From: a virus
Strand: one strand, 5' to 3'
Virus record (IMG/VR): IMGVR_UViG_3300010296_000008
Location: 1-60,968 of that record
DNA length: 60,968 nt
Of this stretch, positions 179 through 51,498 are shown piece after piece; within the stretch, counting starts at the first letter, position 1; every line of letters starts with the position of its first letter. Below the pieces are notes generated by a model. It did no database searches, was not told the origin of the DNA, and was given only the letters and a program-made list of their open reading frames with translations. The translations under genes and the position numbers were made by a program.

Positions 179-211
179 ATAGAACTGAATATCGTCGGCG
201 CACCATAGGTG

Positions 212-240: not shown

Positions 241-241
241 A

Positions 242-267: not shown

Positions 268-268
268 A

Positions 269-34700: not shown

Positions 34701-35274
34701 TACCACCATCGGTAATGATGCTGATGATAGTGGTACTCTGAGAGTCCACAGTACTGCACAATCTAATGATAATGACAGCGGTGCTGTTGTTGTTGACGGT
34801 GGAGTTGGTATTGCTAAGAATGTCAATCTTGGCGGTAATCTCGATGCTGATGGTAACATCACTGCAAATGGCGGTGGTCTAGATATTAATAATAATGGCA
34901 CCAACAACTTCAAGGTTGCTAGCGATGGTACCATTGATGTTAACCAAGTTACTGGTTACTTTACACCTACTGCTGGTCGTCGTTGGGATGAAGTTAGCGC
35001 TAACTCCAACCTGGAAGCAAACGTTAACTACTATGTGACTACATTTGGTGGTGCTAGTATCACCCTAACACTTCCTGCTACTGCGCAGAAGGGCGATCAG
35101 ATTCGTGTTCTTGACGTGACTGATGCTCTGACTTATAATAAGTCCATCATTATTTCTGCTGGCGTTCCTGTTCAGGGCGCTTCGGACGGTCAGTTAGTGA
35201 TCCAGACTCCTGGCGCTGGTTTTGGTCTTCTTTATATCAATGCACTTATCGGTTGGCGTTTAATTGAACTCTAA
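28792..35274 (+). CDS. Large virion structural protein, VrlC-like
   Basis: 2,160 residues. The N-terminus (RFVYVSPDDFNASDDVNNRGNSPTRPFKSIQRAFLEVARFSY in part) with a beta-helix-like start (VVLSPGDHYIDNRPG, GGVIVPRGTSLVGMDLRKTKIRP) is the type found in cyanophage structural proteins annotated as VrlC. The middle is a long series of beta domains. The last 500 residues contain fibre-like beta repeats (GNLTIDGTLTALSNGSHELVGDLTVTKDLYV in part, GAVVVDGGVGIAKNVNLGGNLDADGNI in part) and an end domain (SITLTLPATAQKGDQIRVLD). A baseplate or fibre component is likely. Codon use is unusually rich in CTG and GGT, consistent with high expression. Confidence 0.7.
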   Translation: MALTRLENLISSKTGRFVYVSPDDFNASDDVNNRGNSPTRPFKSIQRAFLEVARFSYKSGPDNDRFDEFTVVLSPGDHYIDNRPGVVSASQIPDFNTNVNFDLGNSQNDLYKFNSTSGGVIVPRGTSLVGMDLRKTKIRPLYVPNPTDTSIPHTSIFNVTGGCYFWQFSIFDGKQKVYFDTSGNKADPTFSHHKITIFEFADAEDLELFYDKIGDAYKNMVVDINVDGAIAETDLENRIVGPLSDKKVIESITPQALGGNATEIRVKTKAPHGYFVGQFVTIDDTGLTNDLHGSFLITRLDPADNTLFYYRVNSSITSLISGTTYTTASLPPNRLNENAIVQAEIDTVDSASPYIFNLSIRSTWGLCGMHADGSKVTGFKSMVTAQYTGVSLQKDDRAFTKFNEETAQFESAWNGVAVTDPEELSTGSFATTPYHTDGRAYFKNEWRNAHVRLSNDAFVQAVSIFAVGFADHFLIESGADISITNSNSNFGNTALDAIGYKGFAFFQDKHGFVTDIVPPETIDLDDTTQPPYYGIDILASKEPSGSTRVYLSGEAEEVSDPDNTPTYILQDYKIGSKRLDRIYAKLDPDITAGESGPQEKSAQMFPSGFDTYTVSTLSTATQSVQNAQGETITYRATIFTCPESHGLYTGTPVRLVPIRTNSSVSDELVRLPKGLEPNTIYYIIAPGRHTAPVPPDQTFPTEDLNTFLLAASEDDAAAGNAIHIPEALNSGVQIEMYQYIFDVNPTPFKYKVTVADPATNEFTLESAHVFDKGFATKAATPVFFRAKPGSQLPGGIDANKMYYAIYDNTGGNINKFKVAETAALAIQGGGIPYSFTSSGTVGVNGQDEIYVFSCNTRHPLRYDPEMTASPGRNGLWYLNVLNTTQQPNTIFTRVSTLDEYVNEEVITTSNTYIKRVNDRRREDDRIYRFRYVVPKEIDNVREPLLGYVLKVRTDENRRLRPQRVVLEAVDGTPDLPVFYGESPTIDPNGDNLEIQNDYNYDPYLTGNSKSLVSDCGIKFTIESAREKQINGANRIELTVFDHTINTSVAAGTALSSGTILTEVRLNSVAGSGFTLGLSVAWSGFSDSSEISGRLPVVHKVYVEGGVTRLILRSDFSLLQYLKFDSGTATILASGGATGILAEKPNGGRDDFTDYAQDLGRQYVIRNAPVYTLTPGDFVRDEADGNQKDYKIVSVEDLDEIENTFYVYRVKTLRRRIYNQQDGIYYLTCLRGDFSPSVSEFNSFKFGHPTERLYPELFADDPLWFDPDGDGSQVKDAPSTISVADNYVHGLVVANDNKNSITREAVANFLENIGRDSIITLEAQDGKAVASREDRLIGIEGNSTAIADRRIYVELRRPSQARSGNHTFEYTGFGPGNYSTAFPSRQEYVLSDDEVLFSQAKRQDGGVVFYSGLNANGDLFVGNQRINAISGEETKIDDSILRVAGENVDEESNTNDITVDTLTVNNKVKFDLINDFQISAPGGTFFSTPVTIEVGDQFANSSDDPGSLTIKSVANTGISSVDPALVETDMVFNPPFKPNTIQFAVWELNPRNVSSGLTYSIKASKDKTVPASESFKQEGTIEFRGTETVGEAHRIANINYNTTLGWIWCQIGGFQQGETPSYGWREWGLIGADALTTYTTGAGSTSTATGSDMRLGVNLKNTRVTNGSVVPQQTLDVEGSGIFRNSLWVGGDNLNPAGIHAFRVFDDDGNGVGRVSINTGDTTEVQANVGLWVGGDVVVRAANAGTGEVESVGGGQTDGNLTIDGTLTALSNGSHELVGDLTVTKDLYVRGGNAKMYRLDSDTTTDNLRIDIKQDDLDRANNYATFQGQNLVVGDAEWSNDHFDDASTAKLVIKADGSARIGDADGGIQMDLNSNVSIGEATPDATQRLWVNGSTKIEISSTEQITVFDGTDLRLKMVPTGQIDFVGDGTESDPNSRMHSTGALTLGDDFTVRKTDINADITFLIDSATGNTTIGNDADDSGTLRVHSTAQSNDNDSGAVVVDGGVGIAKNVNLGGNLDADGNITANGGGLDINNNGTNNFKVASDGTIDVNQVTGYFTPTAGRRWDEVSANSNLEANVNYYVTTFGGASITLTLPATAQKGDQIRVLDVTDALTYNKSIIISAGVPVQGASDGQLVIQTPGAGFGLLYINALIGWRLIEL

Positions 35275-36065
35275 TGGGAAAAAATCTAGCAGAAGTTCGC
35301 GGATTTAAAAATGCCGCGATTGGTACAATTATGGCGTGGACTGGGGGGAATGGCGACGTTCCCCACGGATGGATAGAATGTGATGGTGGTACGTATAGTA
35401 ATGATCAATATCCTCTGTTAAAAGAGGTTATTGGATACACGTATGGTGGATCTGATGCATCTAGTACATTTTCAGTTCCTAGCTTGAATAATGGTAAGGT
35501 GCCTTTTCATAAAGGAGGAACCTATAGCGGAACTGGTGGTACCAATAGTGGTAATGTTGGTTTGTATGCTGCCTGGAACGTAGACGGTAAACCAAACAAA
35601 ACAATCACATACGGTCAGTCGGCGTTCAGCAGCAGCTCTATGTGGTCTAAAACTGCATATGTGCAACCTAGGGTTATGTCCTTGGAGAATATGCCAGCAC
35701 ACGGACATAACGTTATCGTTAATAATGTTAATTCCCAGCACGGTGGTACTCCTAGTGCTGAAGAAGGTGGTACAAAATTTCAAACTGCTCGTACTGGTTT
35801 GAATACTGATGGTTTTCTAAGATATACTCCTAGAGTTGGTTGTCCTAACGATGATCAAAACAATCGATTTAGCGTTCCTTCTGGTGCACATAACCACAGC
35901 TCTATCTCATACTCTATGTCTGCTGGATCTTTAGGAGTTCCTCAATATTCTAACAATTATAATAGCGACAATATCTCCCTAAATAATAATCCAGGCTTAG
36001 GAAGTGCTGGTTTGGACTTTACTCCTCCTTATCAAACTGCGATATACATCATCAAAGCATTCTAA
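35274..36065 (+). CDS. Tail collar domain protein 1
   Basis: 263 residues. The segment AAIGTIMAWTGGNGDVPHGWIECDGGTYSNDQYPLLKEVIGYTYGG with STFSVPSLNNGKVPF is the phage tail collar domain (short tail fibre, T4 gp12 type), and the end PPYQTAIYIIKAF is its usual final strand. The middle is Gly, Ser and Asn-rich with HGHNV and AHNH histidines that in T4 gp12 and similar trimeric fibres bind iron or zinc. The stop of the previous gene overlaps its ATG (TAATG), and the same coupling repeats for the next two collar genes. Confidence 0.82.
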   Translation: MGKNLAEVRGFKNAAIGTIMAWTGGNGDVPHGWIECDGGTYSNDQYPLLKEVIGYTYGGSDASSTFSVPSLNNGKVPFHKGGTYSGTGGTNSGNVGLYAAWNVDGKPNKTITYGQSAFSSSSMWSKTAYVQPRVMSLENMPAHGHNVIVNNVNSQHGGTPSAEEGGTKFQTARTGLNTDGFLRYTPRVGCPNDDQNNRFSVPSGAHNHSSISYSMSAGSLGVPQYSNNYNSDNISLNNNPGLGSAGLDFTPPYQTAIYIIKAF

Positions 36066-36949
36066 TGGCAAAAGTATATTCTAAAGTTAAAGGTGCTCAA
36101 GGTGTTGCCCCAGGGGTTATTGTCCCTTTTTCTAGAGAATGTCAGACTGATAATGAGCGAGAGGAAAGAGTTCCTGGTGGTTATTTGAGATGTGACGGTA
36201 GAGTTTACCAAGCAAGAGATTATCCTTCTCTCGCGAGAGTTATTGGCGTTGGTTCTACTGGTGGTGGATCTGTTGGTGGATGTAAATTTCCTCCTGGTCT
36301 TTCTGGTACTACATTATTAAATCCTTCTTTTGATGCCGATGGTAATTTTACTGGAGGTACATTTGCAGTCCCTAATTTAGGATGTAAAGTTTTAGTTCCC
36401 AGTAGTATTGCTGGTCAACAGTTTGTTGGCAACACGAGGATGTCTGGATCTGGAATTTATGAGAGAGCTGGTATTGGATATCGTGCAATTATTCAATCAG
36501 TAGCGAATAGTTCTTTTAATGGTTCAATTAATGAATCATCATACACCTCATCTATGAGTGGTACTCCATCGTTATCTGTTAGCGGTCAAACATTGAGTAC
36601 AGCATCATTATCTCAATCTAATATTGCTGCTCACGACCACAATTTTTCGTGGAGAGAATCTGATGTTAGAGAAGTTGGTGTTGATACAAATCTCCAAGAT
36701 AATGTAAAAATCGATCTTAGTGGTGTTTTGGTTGAAACTTTTCCTATTGAACACAATGGAGCAGACGTTGTTCATAACCACACGCTTTCAGGATCTGGAA
36801 TTTCCCAAAATCTGAGTTTTACTAGAGATCCTGTAACGATTTCTTTTGCTGGATCTACTGCACAAGCAAACGTGCTTGCGGATTCTAGAGAAAGTCTAGA
36901 TCACGTAACAACACCCTATATGATCGTCGAGTATATTATTAAATTCTAA
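36065..36949 (+). CDS. Tail collar domain protein 2
   Basis: 294 residues with a second collar layout: GVAPGVIVPFSRE, PGGYLRCDGRVYQARDYPSLARVIG, GTFAVPNLGCKVLVPSS and a final TTPYMIVEYIIKF. Between them are Ser/Gly-rich strands with AAHDHNFSW and HNGADVVHNHTLSG histidine pairs similar to metal-binding sites in trimeric short fibres. The sequence differs strongly from collar proteins 1 and 3, so this is an old paralogous array and not a recent duplication. Confidence 0.8.
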   Translation: MAKVYSKVKGAQGVAPGVIVPFSRECQTDNEREERVPGGYLRCDGRVYQARDYPSLARVIGVGSTGGGSVGGCKFPPGLSGTTLLNPSFDADGNFTGGTFAVPNLGCKVLVPSSIAGQQFVGNTRMSGSGIYERAGIGYRAIIQSVANSSFNGSINESSYTSSMSGTPSLSVSGQTLSTASLSQSNIAAHDHNFSWRESDVREVGVDTNLQDNVKIDLSGVLVETFPIEHNGADVVHNHTLSGSGISQNLSFTRDPVTISFAGSTAQANVLADSRESLDHVTTPYMIVEYIIKF

Positions 36950-39771
36950 TGTCTAAGTATTACTCACAAACTAATCCCCAGTGGACGGGAGTTCAGGTCG
37001 GCACCATTGCTATGATGCCGAAAGATTCTGGTGGAAACTATTATGCTCCTCCTGGTTGGCAAGAATGTAACGGCAGAAGCTTGAATCCTAACGAATTTCT
37101 TGCACTGTATCAAATTATTGGTAATACTTACGGGGGTAATGCTGGAACAGAGAGTGCATACCCAAATATTACAGGAGCATTTAATGTTCCTGATTTAAGA
37201 GATAGAAGAGCTATTGGTACTGGTAGACTCAGACCAGAAGATGCATCTTCTCCTGATTTATCTACAGCACACGATTCTGGAGATTCTGACACTTGTGGCA
37301 CAAAAGGTGGTCAGAATGTCTTGAGAATTCCTGACGTTCAATCAAGAGTTCAAGTTGTTGGCAATCCTACAATTAACTATAACACTAGTAGAACAGGACA
37401 ATCTTCGGTTAGATTGAGCGGTGGCAATGTCAGTGTTAATTCTGGTGCTTTGTCTAATCACACTGCTAGTCAGGCACCAAGTCATAATCACGGTCAAGCA
37501 AAAAGTACTCGTGCTAAGCCTGGTGGCAATACTGATGTTGACAGAACAGATCCTGGTTCTGGTGATACTGGATGGAAATATAATCCCAGTGGTGGTCCTT
37601 CTTATGGTCCTTGGCCAACTCAACTTGGCAATTCGCAACCTCACTCCCATTGGATTTCATTTAAAACTAGTATTACAGGTACTGTTTCGTACCATAGAGG
37701 GTGGGGTGATTCTATTGGCAATCGAGGACAGAACTCTCACTTAGGAGCACCAAGTGCTGCACTTGGTTTTAATGGTTGGTACGAACAATATTGTTTGTAT
37801 GCCAATAATCAAAATGAAGGTAATATCAGTATTAATAATGGCGCTTGTACTATTTCCCCATCGCATAATCAATTAGCAGGTAACCTACCACAACAAAGTG
37901 TTGACGCAACTCAGTGTGCTTTTCAGGTTGGTGTCACGATTGGTTTAGACAATGATCCAGAAATCAAACCTACTTATCAAGAAACCGCTTATATGATTTT
38001 CTTGGGTGTGAGCAGCACAGCTTATACTGCTCCACCTCCTCCTGTTGACACTGGTGATAACATTCCCGATGCATTTGGTCCTTTCAACGTTCAAACCGCA
38101 TCAGAATCTGGCACTCAAAGTGTAAGCTTCACGATAACTGGTTGTGATGCTGTTTATGATTTTACAGTTATCGTAGAAAAGACAGGTGGCGCAGATGTTG
38201 GATCTACACCTATCAATCTGGGCGGTACTGGAACCAATACCAAATCTGGATATAGAGTTGGTGATAATGTTTCTATGGTTCTTGAGGGACCTGCTAGCGG
38301 TGGTACCACTGCTGAGTATTCAATCAAGATGTATAATGGAGCATTACTGGTCCAAACTGGATATGCAAACGTTACTTATGCAGCAGCTCCCACTATCTCT
38401 TTCTCTGCTCAACCCGATTTCGTTGAGAGTGGAGACCCTTCGAACCTTACATTTGTCTCACTAGGAGCTACTTCTGTTGTAAGTAGCAACTTTGGTGCGA
38501 CAAATCCTACTGGGCAAACTATCGAAGTATCACCCACATCTACTACCACGTATACAATCACACTTTCTAATGCTTTTGGGTCATCTACTGCAAATACAGA
38601 AGTTGTTGTTGATGTTCCTGCGGCACCTGTTATCAATTTGAGTGTTACTCCTAGCACGATTACTGAAGGGCAAACTGCTAATGTCACATATAGTTCTTAT
38701 AACGCCACTACATTTGTGACATCTAACATCCCTGGAGTCAGTAGTCCTACATATGGAACTGCTGATGTTACTCCCACTGTAACTACAACTTATAGTGTCG
38801 AGTTGAGTAATGCTTATGGATCAACTACGGAATCTGTGGTATTGACTGTTGAACCAGTGCCTCTTCCGACTATTGACTTCTCTCTATCTGGATCTCTTAG
38901 TGTTAATGTTGGAGAGAGTACACCTCTTAAACCTCGTGTGACTGGTGCAACTAGCATTGTTTATAGTTCTTCTCCTGCAGATTCTGGATGGGATGGTTTA
39001 ACTAGTTTGACTGGTGCGGATTACTTTGTAACACCAACGGCAACTGCAGTTTATACAGTTGCAGCAACTAACAGTAGTGGTACCACTACAGAGAGTGTAA
39101 CAGTTTCTGTGACGCAGCTGCCTACAGTTACTATCACTTCTAATCCCTCTGTGTTGGAGATTGGTAGTGGTGCGACAAACCCCGTCTCTCAGTCTACAAT
39201 TACTTGGAGTAGTACAGACGCAACAACTGTTGTTTCTTCTACCTTCGGTGCAAGCGCTGTTAGTGGATCTACTACAGTTTCGCCAACAGAGACGACAGAC
39301 TATACTATAGTTGTTTCTGGTCCTGCTGGGCAGGGTCAAGGTACTACTACCGTTACTGTGAATTGTACTTCTGGTACTGGCACTACATCAGCTGGATATG
39401 CAAATACAGTTTATGGTTATCTTAAGATGAATGATGGCACATTAATATACCAAACCTACTATGTGACTAGCACAATTTCTTCCTGGCATACACAAATTGC
39501 TAAGGGAACCACAACATATCTGCAAGTCTTTAACCAAATTCTGACATCTTATGCTAATATACTAGACAGAAAACCAGAGGATTCTTCGTTTGATTATTGG
39601 GTTAACCAATTTGTTAACGATAGCATTGTGACTTTATCTGATTTGAACCAATCAATTTCTGATAACGCCAATGGTATTGGAGTTGGTGCCAGTAATGAAC
39701 TCGCTCTGAGAGCACCCTACGGTGGTCTCGAAGGCAATTATAACGAGTGTGGAGTTGCTATTTTCCCTTGA
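36949..39771 (+). CDS. Tail collar protein 3 with Ig-like repeats and C-terminal DUF4214
   Basis: 940 residues. Residues 1-370 are a collar protein (GVQVGTIAMMPKDSGGN, PGWQECNGRSLNPNEFLALYQIIGNTYGG, FNVPDLRDRRAIGTG, QETAYMIFLGV). About residues 480-800 carry at least four Ig-like repeats with the pattern SxPxxITEGQTANVTYSSYNAT, VTPTVTTTYSVELSNAYGST. The last 90 residues match DUF4214: VFNQILTSYANILDRKPEDSSFDYWVNQF. DUF4214 is known from bacterial surface and S-layer-associated proteins. The combination suggests a fibre that presents carbohydrate- or protein-binding modules beyond the collar. Confidence 0.8.
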   Translation: MSKYYSQTNPQWTGVQVGTIAMMPKDSGGNYYAPPGWQECNGRSLNPNEFLALYQIIGNTYGGNAGTESAYPNITGAFNVPDLRDRRAIGTGRLRPEDASSPDLSTAHDSGDSDTCGTKGGQNVLRIPDVQSRVQVVGNPTINYNTSRTGQSSVRLSGGNVSVNSGALSNHTASQAPSHNHGQAKSTRAKPGGNTDVDRTDPGSGDTGWKYNPSGGPSYGPWPTQLGNSQPHSHWISFKTSITGTVSYHRGWGDSIGNRGQNSHLGAPSAALGFNGWYEQYCLYANNQNEGNISINNGACTISPSHNQLAGNLPQQSVDATQCAFQVGVTIGLDNDPEIKPTYQETAYMIFLGVSSTAYTAPPPPVDTGDNIPDAFGPFNVQTASESGTQSVSFTITGCDAVYDFTVIVEKTGGADVGSTPINLGGTGTNTKSGYRVGDNVSMVLEGPASGGTTAEYSIKMYNGALLVQTGYANVTYAAAPTISFSAQPDFVESGDPSNLTFVSLGATSVVSSNFGATNPTGQTIEVSPTSTTTYTITLSNAFGSSTANTEVVVDVPAAPVINLSVTPSTITEGQTANVTYSSYNATTFVTSNIPGVSSPTYGTADVTPTVTTTYSVELSNAYGSTTESVVLTVEPVPLPTIDFSLSGSLSVNVGESTPLKPRVTGATSIVYSSSPADSGWDGLTSLTGADYFVTPTATAVYTVAATNSSGTTTESVTVSVTQLPTVTITSNPSVLEIGSGATNPVSQSTITWSSTDATTVVSSTFGASAVSGSTTVSPTETTDYTIVVSGPAGQGQGTTTVTVNCTSGTGTTSAGYANTVYGYLKMNDGTLIYQTYYVTSTISSWHTQIAKGTTTYLQVFNQILTSYANILDRKPEDSSFDYWVNQFVNDSIVTLSDLNQSISDNANGIGVGASNELALRAPYGGLEGNYNECGVAIFP

Positions 39772-39774
39772 TTT

Positions 39775-40422
39775 ATGACTGAACAATTACTTCCTATTCG
39801 TCCTCTTGAGCTAATGCTCAATGAGGACTTGACTAAAGTTGAATTTAATGACCATATTGGCATATGGGAAAACTTTATGCCAGAGAGTCAATGTAAAAAA
39901 TTCATTGACTGGTATAATACGTTTGGTGAAGTTGCTTCGGTAAAGAGTAACTTTGATGAGACTCCTGGTGATGGAAGATTTCAATTTCCAAATCGTGCAT
40001 TGGGAAGATCTGACAAGCAAATTTTGGTCAATCATAATAATCACGAATTATCCCAATCTTGCAATCAACATATTCACTCTTGCTTAGATCATTATATCTT
40101 CCAGTATGGTCAGCTTTCTGGGCAGGATATGATGAGTACTTGCATTAAGTTTCAACATACTCCTGCTGGTGGTGGATATCATCAGTGGCATTACGAAGCA
40201 ATGGGATTAGATCATTCTGCTAGAGTACTCGTCTGGGCAGTATATCTCAATGAAGATTTTGAAGGTGGAGAAACAGAATTTTTAGATCAAAAGCGTCGTA
40301 TTAAACCTACTACAGGGACTGTTATAATTTGGCCAGCTGGATATACTCATACCCACAAAGGAAACACAGTTCTTAGTGGGGATAAATATATCTTGACTGG
40401 ATGGTATCTTCTCAATAATTAA
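39775..40422 (+). CDS. 2OG-Fe(II) oxygenase with HxE variant, fifth copy
   Basis: 215 residues. The beta-helix core reads YHQWHYEAMGLDHSARVLVWAVYLN, GGETEFLDQKRRIKPTTGTVIIWPAGYTHTHKG and KYILTGWY, a prolyl-4-hydroxylase-like layout. The metal site is H139-Y-E141 with distal H192 or H194, so the usual Asp of HxD is Glu. HxE sites are known in some functional members, so activity cannot be excluded. It lies directly after the collar array and before the fibre-chaperone-like gene; modification of tail proteins would be an attractive but unproven role. Confidence 0.78.
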   Translation: MTEQLLPIRPLELMLNEDLTKVEFNDHIGIWENFMPESQCKKFIDWYNTFGEVASVKSNFDETPGDGRFQFPNRALGRSDKQILVNHNNHELSQSCNQHIHSCLDHYIFQYGQLSGQDMMSTCIKFQHTPAGGGYHQWHYEAMGLDHSARVLVWAVYLNEDFEGGETEFLDQKRRIKPTTGTVIIWPAGYTHTHKGNTVLSGDKYILTGWYLLNN

Positions 40423-40423
40423 A

Positions 40424-41077
40424 ATGGCTGTCGATTTTAGCAAAGCGGACCTAGTTATTTGTGTTGGTAATAAAACCGTTGGTGGTTTTTTTGCTGAAGC
40501 AAATGGCATTTTGTCCAAGACACTAAGCGAAGAAGAGTGGAATAGCACCGTTATTCCTTTGATCACTGGTGTTTGGCATATTGAAGGTATAGATAATCTG
40601 GACTGGTTCTATTACTGGAAATCGGTACACGATGGCGATGGTTTGCAAACAGAAACTTTTTATCTGACCGAAAAAACAGATCTGACCGAAGATATTCCTA
40701 AGAACTACAATGAGACTCCTAAGAGCGGTGGTCCTAGTGTAGAGGAGGCAAAACTAGTTTATAATGCATTGGTACCTACGCTGAATACTGTTCTTGCAGA
40801 GTGGAGAGAACAGCAAGCAGCGTTAGCAGCAATGGTTGGTGAACAGTCGCAGTGGTTGCCTCGTACCGATATTCCTGTTAATATGTCTACATTGAAGTAT
40901 TCCAGAGACCAAAGACTCATTGCGTGTGACTGGACTCAGCTTCCAGATTCTCCGATTAGTGACGAATTAAAAGCAGCATATGCAACATATCGTCAAGAAC
41001 TAAGAGATCTTCCTTCTCTTCAAACAGATCCTTACGATCCTTCTCAATTCACTGGATGGCCAACTGAACCTAGGTAA
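40424..41077 (+). CDS. Tail fibre assembly chaperone-like protein
   Basis: 217 residues. The C-terminal third (YSRDQRLIACDWTQLPDSPISDELKAAYATYRQELRDLP in part) is the conserved CDWTQLPD...YRQxLRDLP motif of phage tail fibre assembly proteins. The N-terminal part (MAVDFSKADLVICVGNKTVGGFFAEANGILSKTLSEEEW in part) is specific. Such chaperones help fold and trimerise fibres or collars. Its place between fibre genes agrees. The function of the N-terminal 100 residues is unclear. Confidence 0.75.
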   Translation: MAVDFSKADLVICVGNKTVGGFFAEANGILSKTLSEEEWNSTVIPLITGVWHIEGIDNLDWFYYWKSVHDGDGLQTETFYLTEKTDLTEDIPKNYNETPKSGGPSVEEAKLVYNALVPTLNTVLAEWREQQAALAAMVGEQSQWLPRTDIPVNMSTLKYSRDQRLIACDWTQLPDSPISDELKAAYATYRQELRDLPSLQTDPYDPSQFTGWPTEPR

Positions 41078-41079
41078 TT

Positions 41080-41766
41080 ATGTTTTATCGTTATGAATTC
41101 TTGAGCAGCGTAAAGTTAAATCATATCAATAACTTCTACGATTTCTGCGATTGGGTTGATGGATCTAGAACAGGATCTGAAAACAAAAAGTTGAAGAACA
41201 ACTGGGAGATGGATCTGCCCAATACACACAGCGCCTGGAAAATAATCGAGGAAGATTGGCGTACTAATGTGACTATTGGGCATTTCTTGACTCCTATCAA
41301 GAATACTTTACCGTTGTTTGTTAAGTATGAACCTGGATGCCTTTACGATTGGCATTGTGATAATACTTTAATGGGTGAGAATGAGGATGTCCGATCTGAT
41401 GTTAGCACCACAGTTTTCTTGAACAATCCCGATGAGTATGAGGGGGGAGAACTAGAGATAGAAATTGGCACACAAACTTTTGATGTTAAATTGCCAGCTG
41501 GTTGGGCGTTCAGTTATCCCACTGGCACCAGACACAGAGTCAGAGAGATTACATCTGGTGTTAGAAAAGCTGCTATTATATGGTCTCAGTCATTGTTTCG
41601 AAACTCAGTTGATAGAGAAGCATATGGAAGGAATCGTAAACTGTCTGCGGACCTATCAAAATGTGTTCCGAAAGAGCGTATTTCGCCTGCAGGAGATATG
41701 TGGCACATACAACAGGCAATAGATGATCAGCAAATGTACTTGTTGAGAAGTAAAGCAGAACTTTGA
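41080..41766 (+). CDS. PKHD-type 2OG-Fe(II) hydroxylase, sixth copy
   Basis: 228 residues with a complete triad: H92-C-D94 (YDWHCDN) and H152 (GTRHRVRE), followed by R159-region GVRKAAIIWSQS for the co-substrate. Supporting strands are LFVKYEPG, STTVFLNNPDEYEGGELEIE and KLPAGWAFSYPTG. This is the PiuC/YbiX-like hydroxylase subfamily. The substrate is unknown. It is the last gene before the late box at 41770 and the giant tail gene, so it forms a short operon with the HxE oxygenase and the fibre chaperone. Confidence 0.85.
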   Translation: MFYRYEFLSSVKLNHINNFYDFCDWVDGSRTGSENKKLKNNWEMDLPNTHSAWKIIEEDWRTNVTIGHFLTPIKNTLPLFVKYEPGCLYDWHCDNTLMGENEDVRSDVSTTVFLNNPDEYEGGELEIEIGTQTFDVKLPAGWAFSYPTGTRHRVREITSGVRKAAIIWSQSLFRNSVDREAYGRNRKLSADLSKCVPKERISPAGDMWHIQQAIDDQQMYLLRSKAEL

Positions 41767-41811: not shown

Positions 41812-44800
41812 ATGAGCAATAGAATTATTGCAAGAATTTCTAAGGAAAATCAAGCAGGCGCTGTTATCGAGAGAGCAAAGCAACGCTTTACATCTCTGAA
41901 GAAGACTCAAGATCTGTCTAGACTAAAGACAGTGTTTCTTGATTTCGATTCTAAAGATGATAACTTCATCAATATTCTGAAGGGAGATGATTTCCCTGAG
42001 GTTATTGCTGCTATCTGGGATAGAGAAACTTTTATCGGCGGAGTTGAAACTGCTGATGTTTCTCTTGCTCCAGAAGAAGACTTTGTTCTGAGTGCTAATA
42101 GTCAGACTAGAAGAGATGTTGTTTCTCCTCTGACTACTAGCACAGATGAACTTGATAATCTCGCAAGACAAATTAGACCTCAAGAATACGGCAACGTAAT
42201 TCCTTATTCTGTTGGTGCTGGTACTACGTATTCTGTTACCGCTACAGTTGTCAATACCAGTGCTGGTCCAAAGATTTATTTCAATGGCGTCTACGAAGCT
42301 CCTGACCTGACTTTCCTGTTCCCAGGAATGGAGTTGATCATCAACGTTTCTGATAATACCAACTTTGGTTATACAATTGCTTTCTCCGAAACCCCTGATG
42401 GTACACACAACGATGGAACTGAGTACGTTGTAGGTGTCTCTAGAACATCCACTCCTGGTACCATTGGTGCGGAAGTTAGACTGTCGATTAGTCAGACAAC
42501 TCCACAACAGCTTTACATTTATGCAAAAGAAACTTCAAGAGCTGGTATCCGTGGCAGTGGATTTGTTAATGCCTCTGATTCCTCTAAGGTTGCAATGTTT
42601 AGCAAGTGGTACCTTGCTCGTATCACTCAACAGCAAAATGGTCTGAACTACGGTCTGTACTCTTACACTGAGCACGGTGATGGGGTAGACGTTTACATTA
42701 TGGATACGGGCATTCGTGGAGCATCGCGTCCCAGCAGCCCTACTGGTGCCAACTTACACCCCGAATTATTCCACCCAGACTTTGCTGATGATTACAATGA
42801 TGTAGGTAATCAATCAATATACAGAGTTTATGAAGTGCCTGGATTTAATTCTGGGTATACAGTTAACGGTGAAGCAAATTCTAACGAAGATGATAATGGT
42901 CACGGTACCGAGTGTGCTATTCTCATCGGTGGTTTGCAGCACGGGATGGCGCGTAAAGTAAGATTTTATGCTCTGAAAGTTCAAGCTAGCAATGGCAGTG
43001 GATATTTGTCCGACTATGTGAATGGTCTGCTGGCAATTATTAACCACAATGATCCTTCTCATCCCAATTGGAAAGGTAATTCTCGTCCTGCAATTATTAA
43101 TGCTTCGGTTGGCGTCAATGTTCCTTCGGAAGTATATCGTTACGTTCCTCAGAACGAACCTGGATTCGATAGCGGTGCATATGAAGCAGACACCGCAATG
43201 GATGACTATGAGAACTTCTGTGTAGATAACGGTATTGTCTTTGTCCGCTCTGCTGGTAACGGTTTTGGTTATAACATTCAGTACGGTGGTTTCCAGGCTA
43301 AGTTTAACCCTGGTCCTCGTACTGCTGGTCCTCAGGATTACAGATATAATATGGAGGGGATTGGCGACAAGATTTCTGTCGGTGCCACAGCTTTCAACAA
43401 TACATTCTCTGGATTCTCAAATTATGGTACTGGCGTAACAATTAGTGCTCCTGGTGAGTCTATCTATTGCCCTCGTTACTACTGGAATACTAACAGTGCA
43501 TATAGCACAGTTACTAATGTTTACTATGGATACATCAGAGGTACTTCATTCTCTGGTCCTCTAACTGCAGGTGTTATCGCCCAGTACCTAGGCAAAAAAG
43601 GATATCAAAATAGAACGACTTACGAAGGTAAATCTGTTCCCAAACTTGCTAAAGAATGGCTTCGTAGAAATATTGACTGGGATTACGAAAGAGAGCAGTC
43701 AGCTGTTGGCGAAGAATATGGTGGCGGTAGCGTCAATGTGTATCCTACCAATGATATTGATGAAATCACTCTCGATGGTATTAACACATATGTGAGTGTT
43801 GGTGCTGGTACCAATGAAATCTCTATTACCTTAGGTAGTGAGTATTCTAGATTTAATCCTGCACTCGGAGATTATATTCAATTCCGTATTCCCGAAGCAA
43901 TTCCTGCTACTGATATTATTACTGATGTTTGGGTTAGCAGTGATGGATCTCCCACCGCAGCATATTATAAATCTGGTGGTCAACTGAATGTTGTTACAGA
44001 TAATGATCCCTCTCCTGGTCTTGCTGGAGTATTCCCCTCTGGTGGTACTACTGGTTATGTTTCTACTTTGTCTATCCAGAATCAAGGTTCTGGTTATACA
44101 TTAACACCAACAGTTTCCTTCAGTGGTGGTGGCGGTAATGGCGCTGCAGCAACCGCTGGTATTACACTGACTGGTGGTAATATCACCAGCATTAATGTCG
44201 ATCAGTCTGGTTCTGGTTATACCTCAGCACCAACTGTTGTCATTCAAGGTGATGGTCAAGATGCAACTGCAGAAGCTACTATTGCTTTGACTGGTGGTGG
44301 TGTTGAGAGCGTCACAGTTACTAATGGTGGTTCTGGTTACAACCCGTTGAATCTGCCTGCCATCACATTTACTGGTGGCGGTGGTTCTAATGCTACTGCA
44401 GTAGCTACAGTTGTTGATGGTATTATTACTGCTATTACTATTCAGAATCCTGGTTCTGGATATTCTAGTGCTCCTACAGTTGGTATTGCAGTTTCTGCTC
44501 CTCCCAACCAAGGCACCACTATTCATACTCCCGATAGCAGCTTTGTTAGTGGTGGTGGATCCACAACCTCTGCATCTCTTAACCAAACAACTAGATTGTT
44601 GACGGTTGTTGCTGACAACTTACCTCAACCTTCTCTCTACGGTTCATTCCCTAACGCAAATAATGGTAACGCGATTACGGGTCAATCTTACAACCATACT
44701 TTTGTCTACCGTGGTGGTAGAAACATTAGCGATGAGACACCTACCAATACTACAGACGCAGCTTCTGTCGGTATTGCACTGAATGGTGTTCAACTACGCC

Positions 44801-47800
44801 ATTATTCGCACGGTTTGAATGTTGATCTGCCTAATGGAACTGGTTGTCCCGATGGTTATACCTTTAACAAGGTCTTTAATTCCACTGCATTTGGTACCGA
44901 TAATGGTGGTGGAACAGTCGATAACTCTGGTGTTTACCATTATTTCACTGGCAACTTCTTTATTAATAGCTGGAAAGGATCTACGACGACATATACAGTC
45001 ACAGTTGCTAATCCTGGTACTGGTAACAAGTACTATCTGAATGGTGGATTGACACCTAATCTTATTCTTACCGAAGGCAATACGTATTACTTTGATCAGA
45101 GTGATTCTTCGAACACTGGTTTCCCGTTCAGACTTTCTGCAACACAAGATGGTGTTCATACACAGGGCGGTGTAGTTTATACTATTGGTATCAGATACCA
45201 GGGCACTCCTGGCGATGGTCAATCTGGCACTGGTTTGTATATTCAGGTTCAACCTTCCAGTCCTAACCTTTTCTACTATTGTTCTCTTTACCCTGGTTAC
45301 GGTAATGCAGCTTCTGTTACTACAGTTGCTAATAATGCTGCTCTGCCTTCTCATACAACCACTGACGTTATCAATGCAACCCATCACTCTCCGATTATCG
45401 GATATGCGTATGATGGTTATCCGATCTATGGTCCTATCGGATATGATAGTCCTGGATCTCCGACCACGCTTGCAAGAATGCAATCTTCTTATAGTCTGAA
45501 GACACAGCGTGATGGTGAGCAGTATGCTGGTTCTACCTACACTTGGAGTGTTTCAGCTGACGATAATTTAGATTTCGACTTCACTGGTGAATCTACTGGT
45601 TCTGACGTTTCGATCACTGCCAACGTTGGCGACAACCTTGTGTTTAACGTCAATGCTCAGTATACAACTGGTGGCGGTGGCGGTAGCACACCGAATACCT
45701 ATAACTTAGTTGTTACTGCATCTAGTTTCTCTGATTATACAGTCTCTGGTTCTGATAGAACTGGTAATATTAATGGACTGGATCCTGCCTTAACATTCTA
45801 CGAAGGTGATACAATTAATTTCACGGTTTCTGCTACCAATCACCCATTCTATTTGAAGACAGTTCAGGGTGCTGGTACAGGTAATCAAATCTCTGGTGTT
45901 ACCAATCAAGGTACAACTAGCGGAACTGTTTCTTGGACTCCTGGTTCTGGTACTGCTGGAACTTATTACTATCAGTGCGGTAACCACCAGGATATGTGGG
46001 GCACAATCACGATTCAATCTGCTGGTGGTGGTGGCGGAGAAACTATTACCCATCCTTTCTGGATTCAGACAGTTCCTGCTCCTTACAACCCCACTCAGGT
46101 TGTTGGTAGTGTGACAAACAACGGTACTTTCAATGGTACTATTCTTTGGAGTACAACCACTGCGTCTCCTGGAACATATTACTATGTTTGCGAAAACCAC
46201 CAGGATATGACAGGTACGATTACCTTAACAGAGCCTGTGGGTTATGCACCTTCTACAACTGCATATCCTCTTGGTTCTTTTGTTGAGGACTATGAGTATA
46301 ATGGAAGTGGTCACCTTGACCGTCGTAATGGTAGATTCTGCATTACTCCTGACTTCCCAGGTGGTACATATGCATACTTTATGACATTTGATGCATCTGC
46401 CAACCCTGCATTCCCCTATATTCTGGGTGATCGATACTATGGTGAGGCGATTGTTGAAGGAGTAAGTGCTCCTCAAAACCCACTATTTGAGCAACCCGCT
46501 TCTGCTAGTTGTTCGATTGGTACACAAATCGGTGTTGTGGATAGCATCACTGTGACTGATCCTGGTGTGGGTTATACATATGCAAATATCTCATTCACTG
46601 GTGGCGGTGGTGTCGGTGCTGCAGCATCTGCTAATATCTCCGTTCTCGATGGTTATGTTTCTAGTGTGACAATAGTTGAGCAAGGTACAGATTACGTTAC
46701 TGCTCCTGCTGTTACTATTTCACCTCCGAACGTTAGTGGTGGTGTTCAGGCAACTGCTGTTGCGTCTATTGCAATTACTGCAGGTAACCCGAACAGTATT
46801 GCGAAGCAAAGCTTCAACCAAGACTTTAACTGGAGAGGTGGTACTAACTACCGCACAACTAATCCTGTTAACAAACCTCTGCGTAGTGTGGATCCTTTTG
46901 GTCTGACTACAACAGGTGCATTTATTTACCACTATTCTTTTGAGGGTGGTCCTGTTCCTGGTTGGACTTATAACACGGTGACCAATGGTAACCTTGTGGG
47001 TGAAGATGCTTATGGTGGTTATCCCAATAGCAACAACGTTTATGGATATAACTCCAGTAAACTGTTGAATGCATATGGTTCTACTGCAATTGCAGATTCT
47101 AACTATCTGTCTAGTTCTTATTACGATCTTGGTTTCCGTACAGTTAATTACACGGTTACAGTTGCCGCTAAGTCTGTACTCAATCCTTACTATCAGGTTG
47201 GTGGCAATGAAGCTTATGTGATTCAAGGTGACGACTTTACAGTTGGTGTTGAGTCTCCTGAGCTTGCATTTACTAGAGGTAATACTTACATCTTCAATCA
47301 GACTGATTCTAGTAATGACGGTCATCCGATGTACTTCTCTTCTACAGACGATGGCATTTGGAATGGTGGTGTTCGTTATGGTGTTGGCATCACCTATCGA
47401 TTAGATGGTGCTGCAGTTGATGCTGTTACATATACAAATAACTTCAATTCTGCAACTACTCGTACTATTGCCATTGTCGTTGCTCAGACTGCACCAAATC
47501 AGTTGTATTATGTCTGTGTGAACCATCAGAGAATGGGTAATGGTATTGATGTCAACAGCAACGTTCAAGGCGATTATAAGCGCCACCCAGACGGTCACTC
47601 TAAGATCCTTGGTATGTCATTTGATGGATATCCCATCTATGGTCCTTATGGTTATTCTGATCGTGACGATGAGAATAGCACGGTCATTCGTATGAAGCCT
47701 GCATACCTGCCTAAACTGGAGAATAGAATTCCAGATATGTTTGCTTCACGTCCTGATGAAGGCACATATCCGATTGGATCTTTTGTCGAAGACTTTGAAT

Positions 47801-50800
47801 TCCAAGGTGGCGTTGATGAAGATAACATAACAGACGTTACATTCATTGTTCAGGCAGCTGCTGCTACAACATCTGGTAGTGGTGGTCGTTACTATATCTC
47901 TGGTGGTACATTAACTGGTTCTGCCGAAAAACCTGCGTTCAACTTCAAGAAAGGTAGAAAATATATCTTTAATCTTTCTGATGGTTCTAATGAAACGCAC
48001 GCTATGTTATTCTCCACCAGTGGAGATGCACAAGCACAAGGTTGGCACGTTGCTGGTTCTACAGTTGGTGATGCAAATGCTGTCTACAGCAATGGCGTTG
48101 TCTACAAACTGGAGAATGTAGAGGTCACTTATCAAGAATATGTTGATGGGTTTGATGCTGCAACTCTAAGATCCATTGAGTACACACCCACATCTAATGC
48201 TCCTCACGTTCTGTACTACTTCTGTTACAACCACCCTAATATGGGTGAGCGTATCATTATTGGTGATGTTGATAGCAGAAATGGACGTTATTGTGTGACG
48301 CCTGATTATCCGAATGGTACCTACGCTTATTTCATCACTGAAGATATCAATGGTAACCCTGCATATCCTTATGTGCTAGGTAATCAGTTCTATTCTCAAC
48401 CTGTATTCCCTGGCGATTTGGTCGCAAACAATACTGCATATGTGTATGAAATTGGTGGTATTCAGTTTAATATTCTGCAGAGATACTGGCATCAAATTAC
48501 TTCTGTTGATACTCAGAACGGCAGAATTCAGATCGAACCAGATGGTGCGGCATTTACTGGTATATTCTCCGAGCAAGGTGGTAACCTTTTGAAGGTTGCT
48601 AATCTCACTGGTACACACCAACGTGCTGATGGTATTCAGCGTTGGATTAATGAAAATCCTGTTGGTAATAAACTGTACTTCCAGACAGAAGCTCAGGAAG
48701 ATGCTGGTGAGGGTGAGGGTACCGAAATTATCTACCTCCCTGTTGATAAGGGTGTTGATGGTGGATTTGTTAAGGGTCTCTTCTCTCCTTATATCAATCT
48801 CTTGACAACTTGGTATACACCTCCTGGTGCTCTTGGCACTTACAATATTGGTGACACAGTTAATCTGCAACTGGGTGTTTCGTTCCTCAGAACATATGCA
48901 GCAGAAACAATTCTGGATAGAGATTATTCTCTGACTGGCGATTCTATTGCTGGCACTGGTCTGTCTTTTGATACTGAGACTGGTGTCCTGAGTGGTATCC
49001 TGATCAATAATACTACTCTTGACTTGACATTAACTGTCGAAGAGAATATTTCTGGTCAGACTCAAACCTACACCATTCAGCTGACAAACACCACCATCAC
49101 GGTGCAAAATGTTTCTCTGAAGACTCCTGGAACATCCAAGACTATTGACTACAACGCTGTTACTAAGAAGAGTGGTCAACCTCACGATGATGAGATTTGG
49201 AATGAAAACCAGTGGTATGCTCGTCCATTCTCCTATAAGTCTTTTAGCGTTCTTGCTTATCAGACTGGTTATGAGAATTCTCAGTTTGAATATCTGCCTC
49301 AGTGGCAAATTTTCAAGGACAAGGGTCAGGGTACACAATGGTATAACATCAACGAGTACTCTACGGGTCCTGTGGGTCCTGGTCAGTCTTGCCAACTGGA
49401 AGATGGTGACTGGTTCGAGAACAATGTTGAAGCAAGAGACGAATTCTACTCTTACGAGGAGAAATTCGAAGATGTCACTGGTCACGAGATTGGAATCTCT
49501 TATCTTGTGTGTAACAAGTGGTGGAAGTATGACCAAGATTTCTTCCGTTGCAAGCTCCGTTATCGTTTGATCTTTAATTTGGTTGCAACTGGTAATGATT
49601 ACGCTGTTGTTGTGAACCAGTCTGGTTCTACCGTGTTTGAAGTTCCCAAAGGTGCAACATATCGTTTCGATATCAGCGATTCTTCTTGGTTGGGTAAGAA
49701 TTTGGAGCTTAGAGAGAGTGCAACTGGCACTGCATACACTGGAATTAACGTTAGACGTTATGGCACTCCTGGTACTGCTGGTGCTTGGGTGGATCTCATC
49801 ATTAATGAGGGTCATACTGGCAGCGTTTTCTACTTCGGTCAATCTGGTGGTAGCACATTTGCATCTCAGCACTTAGACTTTACAAGTGTCTTCACTGCTC
49901 TTCTTTCTAACACTCTGCAACTAACAGTTCAGAATACTCCTACAGTTCCTGCACAGCCTCTGCTGACACTGCTCAGTGGTGCTACCGCTATCACTTCTAA
50001 CACATATTCTGTGGTGACTGAGTATGGTGGTCTTACACACTTCCCCAATACACTTCCTTATCAATCTAGCAATAGATCTCCTAAGGCGGGTCGTTATCCT
50101 GTGGAACTTCTCTGTACTGACCAGAATATTGAATTCAACTGGTATCGTAAGCTCTATGATTATAATACCTCTAACGGTGTGAAATCTTATAACTGGGATA
50201 CAGTTACCAACACCTACAGCACATATGTGCCTCTGGATTCTCCCCACTTTAGATCTAGAAGAGATTATGGTAATGAACTGACTAATTACCAAACTTCTTG
50301 TACTCTTGATGGTGTTAGCAACTATAGAGAAAACTATATTTCTTTCGATGAAGAGTTCCCTCTTCGTGTGAATTATGGTGGTCCGAAGATTGAGATTCCT
50401 GTTCAATCTCCTTCTTCGCTGTTACCTCCTCTTGCAAATAATGGTAGCGTGATCCGTGTTACCGATCTACCTTGTAAGGGTACACCTAAAGGTAAAAATG
50501 ATCCTTACTCTTATCAGATTACAGTTGGTAATGGCAATACCATTTCCTCTGTGTCTAATGAAATTACCGTTATTCCTAATCCTCCCGAGTTAGGTATGTG
50601 GTGGTATGAGTATGATAATGGTTGGACTGGTACTGTTTCTAACGGTTATCTGCGTCACGATCAAGGTTTCGTTGATACTACCCTGACTTGCGGTGATTAC
50701 TTCGGTAATGTCTACATTCGTTCTTTTGTTATTGACGTGGGTCCTGCACCTCTGAGTGCACTGCCTTATATCGATGTCAATACTATGAAAGTTCAGGATT

Positions 50801-51498
50801 ACTATAAGGGTGCACAGAACTTTACAGTCCAGAACAACCAGTCTCAAGATGTGATCATCTCTTACACAATCGATGCTGGTCAGTTTACCTGGAGAATGCG
50901 TTTAATCAATGAATTCCCCTATATGGAGACTGTTGATGGTGGTACTAGAACTATCTACACTTTGAATAATCCTACTCACGCGAATGGTCCTACAGTTGTT
51001 AATACTGGTGACTTTACTACTTACACAGGTCAGCTCGCAACTGCAACTGGTTTACTTCGTGAGTGTCCTTTCCGTGGCGACACAAGCATCAATATGCCTG
51101 TGGACTTCTCTGTGAAGAATGACATTCAACCTGCTGTCTTCCCCGCACGTGGTACTCAAAAGGTCTATACACTGTGGGTTGAGCTGGTCGAATCTCCCTT
51201 CGATCTGGTTGATTTGATTAACCTCGTTGCTGTTGCTGATCCTTGTCAGGATCAGACATATGATTTTGCATACACCTCTAACGGTGCTTGCATCACTCCT
51301 TCTAATGATTACTTCTGTAACTTCATCAAGCCTCTGCGTGATCGCAATCACCCAGAACAACCGATCATCGGTATGGAAGGCGTGGCACAGATCAGAGTGA
51401 CAGATGGTATTTCGCCAAGAACTCTGGATTTCCAAGTTCCTTCTCCTTGGCCGATTCTGTTCTCCTACTTGGGAGACTGTAACCCTACCTGCGCATAA
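41812..51498 (+). CDS. Giant virion protein: subtilisin-like protease, YHYH and cupredoxin-like domains
   Basis: 3,228 residues. A subtilase domain (about 285-620) has D298 (VYIMDTGI), H364 (NGHGTECA), oxyanion N483 (SAGNG) and S579 (GTSFSGP), a complete triad. GxGYxxxPTV beta repeats follow (about 750-900 and 1570-1640). Two YHYH-type domains end in GYPIYGPxGY (H1191-H1192 region and H1929 region). Four cupredoxin-like domains carry full type-1 copper ligand sets: H1344/C1389/H1392/M1395, H1414/C1460/H1463/M1466, H1838/C1902/H1905/M1908, H2063/C2138/H2141/M2144; a fifth (C1157) is degenerate. A putative Ig domain (LSFDTETGVLSG) lies near residue 2400. It is probably a tail fibre or baseplate-peripheral protein. 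Confidence 0.8.
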   Translation: MSNRIIARISKENQAGAVIERAKQRFTSLKKTQDLSRLKTVFLDFDSKDDNFINILKGDDFPEVIAAIWDRETFIGGVETADVSLAPEEDFVLSANSQTRRDVVSPLTTSTDELDNLARQIRPQEYGNVIPYSVGAGTTYSVTATVVNTSAGPKIYFNGVYEAPDLTFLFPGMELIINVSDNTNFGYTIAFSETPDGTHNDGTEYVVGVSRTSTPGTIGAEVRLSISQTTPQQLYIYAKETSRAGIRGSGFVNASDSSKVAMFSKWYLARITQQQNGLNYGLYSYTEHGDGVDVYIMDTGIRGASRPSSPTGANLHPELFHPDFADDYNDVGNQSIYRVYEVPGFNSGYTVNGEANSNEDDNGHGTECAILIGGLQHGMARKVRFYALKVQASNGSGYLSDYVNGLLAIINHNDPSHPNWKGNSRPAIINASVGVNVPSEVYRYVPQNEPGFDSGAYEADTAMDDYENFCVDNGIVFVRSAGNGFGYNIQYGGFQAKFNPGPRTAGPQDYRYNMEGIGDKISVGATAFNNTFSGFSNYGTGVTISAPGESIYCPRYYWNTNSAYSTVTNVYYGYIRGTSFSGPLTAGVIAQYLGKKGYQNRTTYEGKSVPKLAKEWLRRNIDWDYEREQSAVGEEYGGGSVNVYPTNDIDEITLDGINTYVSVGAGTNEISITLGSEYSRFNPALGDYIQFRIPEAIPATDIITDVWVSSDGSPTAAYYKSGGQLNVVTDNDPSPGLAGVFPSGGTTGYVSTLSIQNQGSGYTLTPTVSFSGGGGNGAAATAGITLTGGNITSINVDQSGSGYTSAPTVVIQGDGQDATAEATIALTGGGVESVTVTNGGSGYNPLNLPAITFTGGGGSNATAVATVVDGIITAITIQNPGSGYSSAPTVGIAVSAPPNQGTTIHTPDSSFVSGGGSTTSASLNQTTRLLTVVADNLPQPSLYGSFPNANNGNAITGQSYNHTFVYRGGRNISDETPTNTTDAASVGIALNGVQLRHYSHGLNVDLPNGTGCPDGYTFNKVFNSTAFGTDNGGGTVDNSGVYHYFTGNFFINSWKGSTTTYTVTVANPGTGNKYYLNGGLTPNLILTEGNTYYFDQSDSSNTGFPFRLSATQDGVHTQGGVVYTIGIRYQGTPGDGQSGTGLYIQVQPSSPNLFYYCSLYPGYGNAASVTTVANNAALPSHTTTDVINATHHSPIIGYAYDGYPIYGPIGYDSPGSPTTLARMQSSYSLKTQRDGEQYAGSTYTWSVSADDNLDFDFTGESTGSDVSITANVGDNLVFNVNAQYTTGGGGGSTPNTYNLVVTASSFSDYTVSGSDRTGNINGLDPALTFYEGDTINFTVSATNHPFYLKTVQGAGTGNQISGVTNQGTTSGTVSWTPGSGTAGTYYYQCGNHQDMWGTITIQSAGGGGGETITHPFWIQTVPAPYNPTQVVGSVTNNGTFNGTILWSTTTASPGTYYYVCENHQDMTGTITLTEPVGYAPSTTAYPLGSFVEDYEYNGSGHLDRRNGRFCITPDFPGGTYAYFMTFDASANPAFPYILGDRYYGEAIVEGVSAPQNPLFEQPASASCSIGTQIGVVDSITVTDPGVGYTYANISFTGGGGVGAAASANISVLDGYVSSVTIVEQGTDYVTAPAVTISPPNVSGGVQATAVASIAITAGNPNSIAKQSFNQDFNWRGGTNYRTTNPVNKPLRSVDPFGLTTTGAFIYHYSFEGGPVPGWTYNTVTNGNLVGEDAYGGYPNSNNVYGYNSSKLLNAYGSTAIADSNYLSSSYYDLGFRTVNYTVTVAAKSVLNPYYQVGGNEAYVIQGDDFTVGVESPELAFTRGNTYIFNQTDSSNDGHPMYFSSTDDGIWNGGVRYGVGITYRLDGAAVDAVTYTNNFNSATTRTIAIVVAQTAPNQLYYVCVNHQRMGNGIDVNSNVQGDYKRHPDGHSKILGMSFDGYPIYGPYGYSDRDDENSTVIRMKPAYLPKLENRIPDMFASRPDEGTYPIGSFVEDFEFQGGVDEDNITDVTFIVQAAAATTSGSGGRYYISGGTLTGSAEKPAFNFKKGRKYIFNLSDGSNETHAMLFSTSGDAQAQGWHVAGSTVGDANAVYSNGVVYKLENVEVTYQEYVDGFDAATLRSIEYTPTSNAPHVLYYFCYNHPNMGERIIIGDVDSRNGRYCVTPDYPNGTYAYFITEDINGNPAYPYVLGNQFYSQPVFPGDLVANNTAYVYEIGGIQFNILQRYWHQITSVDTQNGRIQIEPDGAAFTGIFSEQGGNLLKVANLTGTHQRADGIQRWINENPVGNKLYFQTEAQEDAGEGEGTEIIYLPVDKGVDGGFVKGLFSPYINLLTTWYTPPGALGTYNIGDTVNLQLGVSFLRTYAAETILDRDYSLTGDSIAGTGLSFDTETGVLSGILINNTTLDLTLTVEENISGQTQTYTIQLTNTTITVQNVSLKTPGTSKTIDYNAVTKKSGQPHDDEIWNENQWYARPFSYKSFSVLAYQTGYENSQFEYLPQWQIFKDKGQGTQWYNINEYSTGPVGPGQSCQLEDGDWFENNVEARDEFYSYEEKFEDVTGHEIGISYLVCNKWWKYDQDFFRCKLRYRLIFNLVATGNDYAVVVNQSGSTVFEVPKGATYRFDISDSSWLGKNLELRESATGTAYTGINVRRYGTPGTAGAWVDLIINEGHTGSVFYFGQSGGSTFASQHLDFTSVFTALLSNTLQLTVQNTPTVPAQPLLTLLSGATAITSNTYSVVTEYGGLTHFPNTLPYQSSNRSPKAGRYPVELLCTDQNIEFNWYRKLYDYNTSNGVKSYNWDTVTNTYSTYVPLDSPHFRSRRDYGNELTNYQTSCTLDGVSNYRENYISFDEEFPLRVNYGGPKIEIPVQSPSSLLPPLANNGSVIRVTDLPCKGTPKGKNDPYSYQITVGNGNTISSVSNEITVIPNPPELGMWWYEYDNGWTGTVSNGYLRHDQGFVDTTLTCGDYFGNVYIRSFVIDVGPAPLSALPYIDVNTMKVQDYYKGAQNFTVQNNQSQDVIISYTIDAGQFTWRMRLINEFPYMETVDGGTRTIYTLNNPTHANGPTVVNTGDFTTYTGQLATATGLLRECPFRGDTSINMPVDFSVKNDIQPAVFPARGTQKVYTLWVELVESPFDLVDLINLVAVADPCQDQTYDFAYTSNGACITPSNDYFCNFIKPLRDRNHPEQPIIGMEGVAQIRVTDGISPRTLDFQVPSPWPILFSYLGDCNPTCA

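Follow-up and report, generated by a model that had tools for sequence, protein, structure and literature searches.

The window, a virus record of 60,968 bases analyzed over its whole length, encodes a giant virion-type protein with a protease at its N-terminal end (Table 1). Pfam PF00082 (Peptidase_S8) matched residues 289-598 with a score of 102 bits (E 4.7e-29, cut-off 21.8), and a six-frame profile search located the single subtilase of the whole record in a stop-free envelope at 42676-43605 (108.5 bits). A preliminary description of this DNA had set the protease at 42660-43700; the feature is indeed there, and the start at 42660 falls out of the reading frame, which is mere coordinate imprecision. 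Elsewhere in the protein, the YHYH family PF14240 scored above its cut-off (151.6 bits against 25, E 3.3e-44, 5 stretches), a copper-binding Pfam match fell below threshold (15.3 against 21.2), and residues 1239-1402 also matched phrog_677, a baseplate wedge tail fibre connector. In the accessible part of one report, YHYH is predicted to act as a metal hydrolase associated with the tail (PMC7824862), and in that of another it is placed among carbohydrate-binding or recognition domains (PMC7029224). By its sequence, the window phage is a T4-like cyanophage. In its SSB gene it shares 69.6% identity with Synechococcus phage S-H9-1, its baseplate and tail genes are T4-like, and a query with the gp5-like baseplate hub protein returned 210 phage records, every one named Synechococcus, Cyanophage, Prochlorococcus or Marine. 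A separate tail protein (15659-18928, 1089 aa) has a metallo-endopeptidase-like segment around residues 838-940.

Table 1. Features of the giant-protein locus, in coordinates of the window
Feature	Position	Strand	Basis
Three tail-fibre/collar genes; the last (36949-39771) with a Collar domain	35274..39771	+	annotation, synteny
Upstream cassette: 2OG-Fe(II) oxygenase, tail-fibre assembly protein, 2OG-Fe(II) oxygenase	39775..41766	+	annotation, synteny
Giant virion-type protein, 3228 aa, protease at N-terminal end	41812..51498	+	ORF; PHROG matches to tail, baseplate and virion modules
Predicted inhibitor-I9-type prodomain, about aa 1-75 (strand-helix-strand-strand-helix-strand)	41812..42036	+	AlphaFold2 model, superposition with pro-enzymes, weak profile match
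Cupredoxin-like domain, aa ~129-250, boundaries approximate	42196..42561	+	alignment with P-HM1 type
Subtilase catalytic domain (S8, proteinase K-like), aa 262-600	42595..43611	+	Pfam, structure matches
Catalytic Asp298 codon	42703..42705	+	motif and alignment
Catalytic His364 codon	42901..42903	+	motif and alignment
Oxyanion-hole Asn483 codon	43258..43260	+	motif and alignment
Catalytic Ser579 codon	43546..43548	+	motif and alignment
YHYH-domain region, DGYPIYG motifs at aa 1201 and 1938	45412..47643	+	PF14240, motif positions
Predicted cupredoxin domain, aa 1296-1402, H1344 C1389 H1392 M1395	45697..46017	+	ligand conservation, model
Next gene, 648 aa, Ig/fn3-like repeats	51523..53469	+	annotation, comparison

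The protein had been described as lying next to fibre genes, and rightly so: tail-fibre/collar genes lie upstream, and the arrangement is conserved. The order 2OG oxygenase, fibre-assembly gene, 2OG oxygenase, giant protein recurred at 10/10 window-clade loci examined (L013, L017, L022, L023, L026, L027, L034, L036, L038 and L029), out of 41 window-type ORFs among the 168 relatives' ORFs. Three fibre genes preceded the cassette at nine of these ten loci; the tenth, L029, starts too late. At the length filter applied, the cassette was not matched in L165 (S-BM3 type) or L090 (P-HM1), and we therefore regard it as a feature of the window clade only. The protease gene of P-HM1, P-HM2 and MED4-213 sits directly ahead of the neck genes. 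On the other side of the window's giant gene, parts of the 648-residue product resemble the protease proteins of P-HM1 and S-BM3 in their C-terminal regions. The two 2OG-Fe(II) oxygenase genes (39775-40422 and 41080-41766) flank the tail-fibre assembly gene, and their products might hydroxylate fibre proteins.

We collected relatives of the protease region from isolates and from environmental sequence. Nine of 50,697 phage records matched the domain: P-HM1, P-HM2 and MED4-213 (two each), S-BM3 and two Acinetobacter contigs. The latter matches, to Acinetobacter phage MD-2021a, were rejected as phage relatives, the one inspected having bacterial transporter and metabolic genes as neighbours; the cyanophage family comprises seven records from four phages. 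From IMG/VR, a first scan gave 5 loci, an alignment query the best 80 of 193 candidates (79 distinct loci), a P-HM1 query the best 80 of 102 candidates, overlapping the 193, and an S-BM3 query 3. Taking one ORF from each of 168 sources, with both the window and its copy L001 included, yielded 130 distinct regions. Full-length ORFs (110 of the 168) fell into three types that share an N-terminal segment of ~70 residues followed by the subtilase. Among the 22 of window type, 20 have 3227-3291 residues and two YHYH motifs, and the other two come from a frameshifted contig. The 84 P-HM1-type proteins span 1030-2085 residues, all except two lying between 1684 and 2085, with no YHYH motif by the pattern used. 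The four of S-BM3 type have 2634-2648 residues, and YHYH was found in S-BM3 itself by Pfam, having been missed by the motif search. The frameshifted 105-kb contig (L007/L012) was rejected as a short form: its ORF ends at 873 residues, and another frame continues with 82% identity to residues 858-3228. The frameshift, at about residues 860-885 (L007:12540-12622), parts the protease from the remainder and is either real or an assembly error. Another relative (L168) was located in the Prochlorococcus single-cell genome AG-418-C09, on a contig of 189 kb, which suggests an infected Prochlorococcus cell. L169, nominally a Dehalococcoidia contig, probably comes from a phage and was binned with a bacterium, judging solely from a 41% match.

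The residues singled out in the preliminary description, D298, H364, N483 and S579, were confirmed in textbook subtilase motifs (MDTGI from residue 297, NGHGTE from 362, SAGNG from 480 and GTSFSGP from 577), and the Asp-His-Ser order with an oxyanion Asn is kept as in family S8. That description had staked its reading on the triad being conserved in close homologues, and so it proved. Across the 130 distinct regions, among them the window itself (L001) and a bacterial sequence from Acinetobacter (L006), the catalytic columns were invariant wherever the residue is present (D 130/130, H 130/130, N 129/129, S 128/128), which far exceeds what chance would give; the missing cells, one for N and two for S, are contig-end truncations in L039 and L161. 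Among the retrieval patterns, the N motif figured in the alignment query and the H motif in the P-HM1 query; as the motifs of the catalytic D and S figured in none, conservation at these two columns is free of retrieval bias. In the same proteins, the copper ligands of the neighbouring N-terminal domain were lost in 27/27 window-type and 20/98 P-HM1-type regions; the sampled divergence thus sufficed to lose a site while the triad stayed invariant. The earlier impression of an active enzyme is therefore one we share: as far as the sequence indicates, this giant virion-type protein carries an intact subtilase domain that probably works.

An AlphaFold2 model of residues 1-660, built from 66 sequences (mean pLDDT 76.3, pTM 0.83, with parts of the catalytic domain below 50, e.g. 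484-494 and 532-537), predicted a subtilisin fold. It matched ProteinT (8c4z, Z 31.0) and aqualysin I (4dzt, Z 30.8, 2.2 Å over 266 residues), and the fold search also returned PCSK9. Residues 4-69 of the model run strand, helix, strand, strand, helix, strand, the topology of inhibitor I9. Precursors superposed over prodomain and enzyme together: 3afg with Z 26.6 over 333 residues (model end points 3..647) and unprocessed pro-subtilisin E 3whi with Z 26.4 over 323/355 (2..647). Mature enzymes align over ~267 residues as against 323-333 for precursors, so the ~60 extra residues correspond to the prodomain, and this joint superposition is the main evidence for the predicted zymogen state. The sequence match to I9 is weak: comparing the N-termini of 113 phage sequences with 30 I9 segments from cellular proteins gave an hhalign score of 21.4 (probability 22%, 57 columns), compared with 15.1 for the best of 60 column shuffles and 12.6 for the reversed alignment. 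The S-BM3 N-terminal segment, which aligns poorly, was excluded from this comparison, and PF05922, the inhibitor I9 family, is absent from the Pfam families reported for 66 family members. What had been described as a plain 280-residue N-terminal region is thus present, but the model predicts within it an I9-type prodomain and a degenerate cupredoxin-like domain. Prodomains of pro-subtilases aid folding and obstruct the active site until the enzyme itself cleaves them off, after which they are degraded; given a predicted I9-type prodomain in the first 280 residues, self-processing would be the expected first step.

We next consider the cupredoxin modules. In the N-terminal domain the copper-ligand positions are occupied by Y, A, T and A in the window, which is not a type 1 copper ligand set. 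All four ligands, H-C-H-M, occur in 78/98 distinct P-HM1-type regions and in 0/27 window-type regions, leaving aside one further row, the Acinetobacter sequence, that had been counted as window-type. The idea that the protease generally needs copper was accordingly rejected for the window clade, in which these ligands are lost. Farther downstream, H1344, C1389, H1392 and M1395 were invariant in 16/16 aligned sequences. A second model, of residues 1285-1476 (16 sequences, pLDDT 84.3), had copper proteins as its top matches: the three-domain nitrite reductase 2dv6 (Z 11.1), rusticyanin 2cal (Z 10.3) and small laccases (Z ~9.7). On this model, residues 1296-1402 are a cupredoxin fold with a type 1 copper ligand set, a predicted copper domain; its C-x2-H-x2-M spacing resembles that of amicyanin. 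Cupredoxin-like modules with H...C-x2-H-x2-M lie at 45697-46017, 46051-46236, ~47515 and 48223. In S-BM3 a cupredoxin module lies inside the subtilase domain, ahead of the oxyanion Asn (L005:15659-17500); this insert is homologous to the P-HM1-type cupredoxin-like domain, and none lies between the prodomain-like segment and the enzyme of that phage. Cupredoxins occur at the prodomain/enzyme junction (P-HM1), inside the enzyme (S-BM3), at the C-terminus (S-H9-1) or further downstream (window).

Subtilases of a second lineage were retrieved with the ACG-2014e protease, which matched 51 records, including S-H9-1, S-WAM2, S-CREM1, P-SSM2 and S-SCSM1. They are labelled 'subtilisin-like serine protease' in S-H9-1 and S-WAM2, 'peptidase' in S-CREM1 and 'contains PF00082 domain' for PSSM2_297. 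A FastTree analysis, in which the cellular sequences were sampled with bias by being fetched with a first-lineage profile, placed the window, P-HM and S-BM3 proteins in one clade (support 1.0) and the second lineage in another (0.98). An S-TIM54 row without Asp at the catalytic column is uninformative, the protein having been cut arbitrarily. The second lineage includes S-SCSM1_228 (L209:5932-10167), which has an S8 domain (92.9 bits) and LamG domains and is annotated as a baseplate wedge subunit with the tag '(virion protein)'. Its annotation is silent on both domains. Mass spectrometry of CsCl-purified S-SCSM1 particles identified 45 proteins, of which ORF91, 213 and 214 are named as non-structural in the portion of that report available (PMC9602691), and the word 'protease' occurs 0 times in the same portion. 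The S-SCSM1 record bears 48 '(virion protein)' tags, differing from the 45 of the paper; ORF91, 213 and 214 are tagged and several baseplate genes are not, which suggests that the tag reports detection in particles. We infer a virion location for the window protein, as far as comparison allows, from the tail-fibre cassette, the structural PHROG matches and the tagged S-SCSM1_228, a protein of a distant lineage.

Collectively, the fold family, the catalytic residues and the gene context lead us to favor, with slightly better than even confidence, a self-processing, virion-tethered subtilase zymogen that acts on host-surface proteins. Residues 1-75 would fold as an I9-type prodomain, assist folding of the proteinase K-like domain (residues ~262-600) and, docked as in the model, block its active site. 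Like related pro-subtilases, the enzyme would then presumably release itself from the prodomain by self-cleavage; in its mature form it would stay covalently tied to a ~2600-residue body of cupredoxin, YHYH and beta-repeat modules on the tail or fibre apparatus. The prodomain would thus hold the protease inactive inside the infected cell and allow it to be active on the finished particle, where it may trim picocyanobacterial surface proteins at adsorption. An enzyme tied to a virion-type body acts only where the particle is, and host-surface proteins would therefore be its most likely targets. Nothing points to the S-layer, which had been put forward as a target, and the hosts of the isolate relatives include both Prochlorococcus MED4 and Synechococcus WH7803.

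The main rival, which we consider possible though unlikely, is a protease of virion assembly that cuts the giant protein at further sites, or the neighbouring fibres, during maturation. The syntenic fibre cassette with its assembly protein is what this would predict, and an I9 prodomain would time such cutting. However, most T4-like cyanophages lack the family (7 records, against 210 with the hub protein), and so accessory a distribution is more in keeping with a part in host interaction than with a general one in assembly. Moreover, P-HM1 and P-HM2 already carry the usual prohead protease gp21, and the order of the downstream domains differs between clades, so that no shared cut site is evident. 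It is very improbable that the protease removes its own prodomain only and then serves as an inert adhesin module. Some self-processing subtilases, PCSK9-like, do act only once, and the model matches PCSK9; yet the closest structural matches are proteinase K-like enzymes of broad specificity, and the triad is kept in the short free-standing relatives of S-H38 and S-CREM1.

Virion proteins often reuse enzyme folds, and a dead enzyme retained as a structural scaffold would be one more instance, but the invariance of the triad and oxyanion Asn wherever present in the 130 regions makes this the least credible of the readings. We also give little credence to action inside the host cell or after lysis, on host proteins or competitors, rather than primarily on the virion. 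Such a role would sit easily with a window protein that is placed in the virion by comparison, but it fits poorly with the fusion to a ~2600-residue virion-type body, the fibre cassette and the tagged virion subtilase of S-SCSM1. A more elaborate version of the virion-tethered zymogen, which we regard as doubtful, would have a latent tail protease switched on only outside the cell, with the cupredoxins taking part through copper or redox sensing or by docking on host-surface copper sites. If true, phage entry would here involve a proteolytic step that relies on a zymogen and is linked to metal.

Breaching of the host by phages is familiar chiefly from enzymes that cut sugars or peptidoglycan, and a tail-borne enzyme that cuts protein and has a built-in inhibitor would be a different entry tool. 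Subtilases are already annotated in structural regions of cyanophages (P-SSM2, S-BM3 and S-H9-1), which makes this a known kind of protein. Three features seem to have escaped notice: the arrangement as a zymogen, the repeated association of subtilase with cupredoxin, and the S-SCSM1 subtilase tagged as a virion protein. Searches on subtilases, S8 peptidases, cupredoxins and virion proteases found no cyanophage-virion subtilase in titles or the starts of abstracts, a survey that lay mostly outside subscription journals, and the virion proteomes in the available portions of PMC10665884 and PMC9964418 list no subtilase. According to the accessible part of PMC3037559, P-HM1 and P-HM2 have peptidase genes at syntenic positions, which belong to T4-GCs 573 and 452, clusters other than 519. 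Two candidate precedents were set aside: 'sheath subtilisin' in PMC9004378 is a single figure-legend phrase and no report of a subtilase, and the Atu_ph07 paper, in the portion available, treats Clp-like proteases only, although BFVD lists an 'extracellular serine proteinase' for that phage. Relatives are not unusual among marine viral contigs (193 and 102 overlapping candidates from two queries), the fact that subtilase and cupredoxin keep occurring together, in differing arrangements, calls for explanation, and the cultured representatives P-HM1, P-HM2 and S-BM3 make the idea directly testable.

The closest known counterparts are PHM1_104 of P-HM1, PHM2_106 of P-HM2 and CPMG_00018 of MED4-213 (T4-GC 519, phrog_27200), together with SBM3_00202 of S-BM3, annotated 'peptidase S8'; all belong to the same family as the N-terminal region of the window protein. 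Like it, they have a prodomain-like segment and then a subtilase, keep the triad and lie in a virion gene region. They are shorter, with 1832 residues in P-HM1 and 2648 in S-BM3 as against 3228. Unlike the window, the P-HM1 type has copper ligands in its N-terminal cupredoxin, and P-HM1 lacks YHYH; S-BM3 differs in having its cupredoxin inside the protease domain instead of between prodomain and enzyme. The second lineage (phrog_9158 in S-H9-1 and ACG-2014e; S-CREM1, S-H38, PSSM2_297 and S-SCSM1_228) resembles the window in an I9-like N-terminus, recognized by eye, in its S8 domain and triad, and in adjoining baseplate, fibre or other structural genes. The C-terminal cupredoxin of S-H9-1 and ACG-2014e is homologous to the window cupredoxins (48% identity), but the proteins of S-H9-1, ACG-2014e, S-H38, S-CREM1 and P-SSM2, at 550-686 residues, are not giant. 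Beyond phages, the predicted fold, the triad and the I9-type prodomain are those of proteinase K-like subtilases such as aqualysin I, the Vibrio and Serratia enzymes and ProteinT. Those are free secreted enzymes of broad specificity, whereas the window enzyme forms part of a giant phage protein, in which a cupredoxin-like domain parts the predicted prodomain from the protease.
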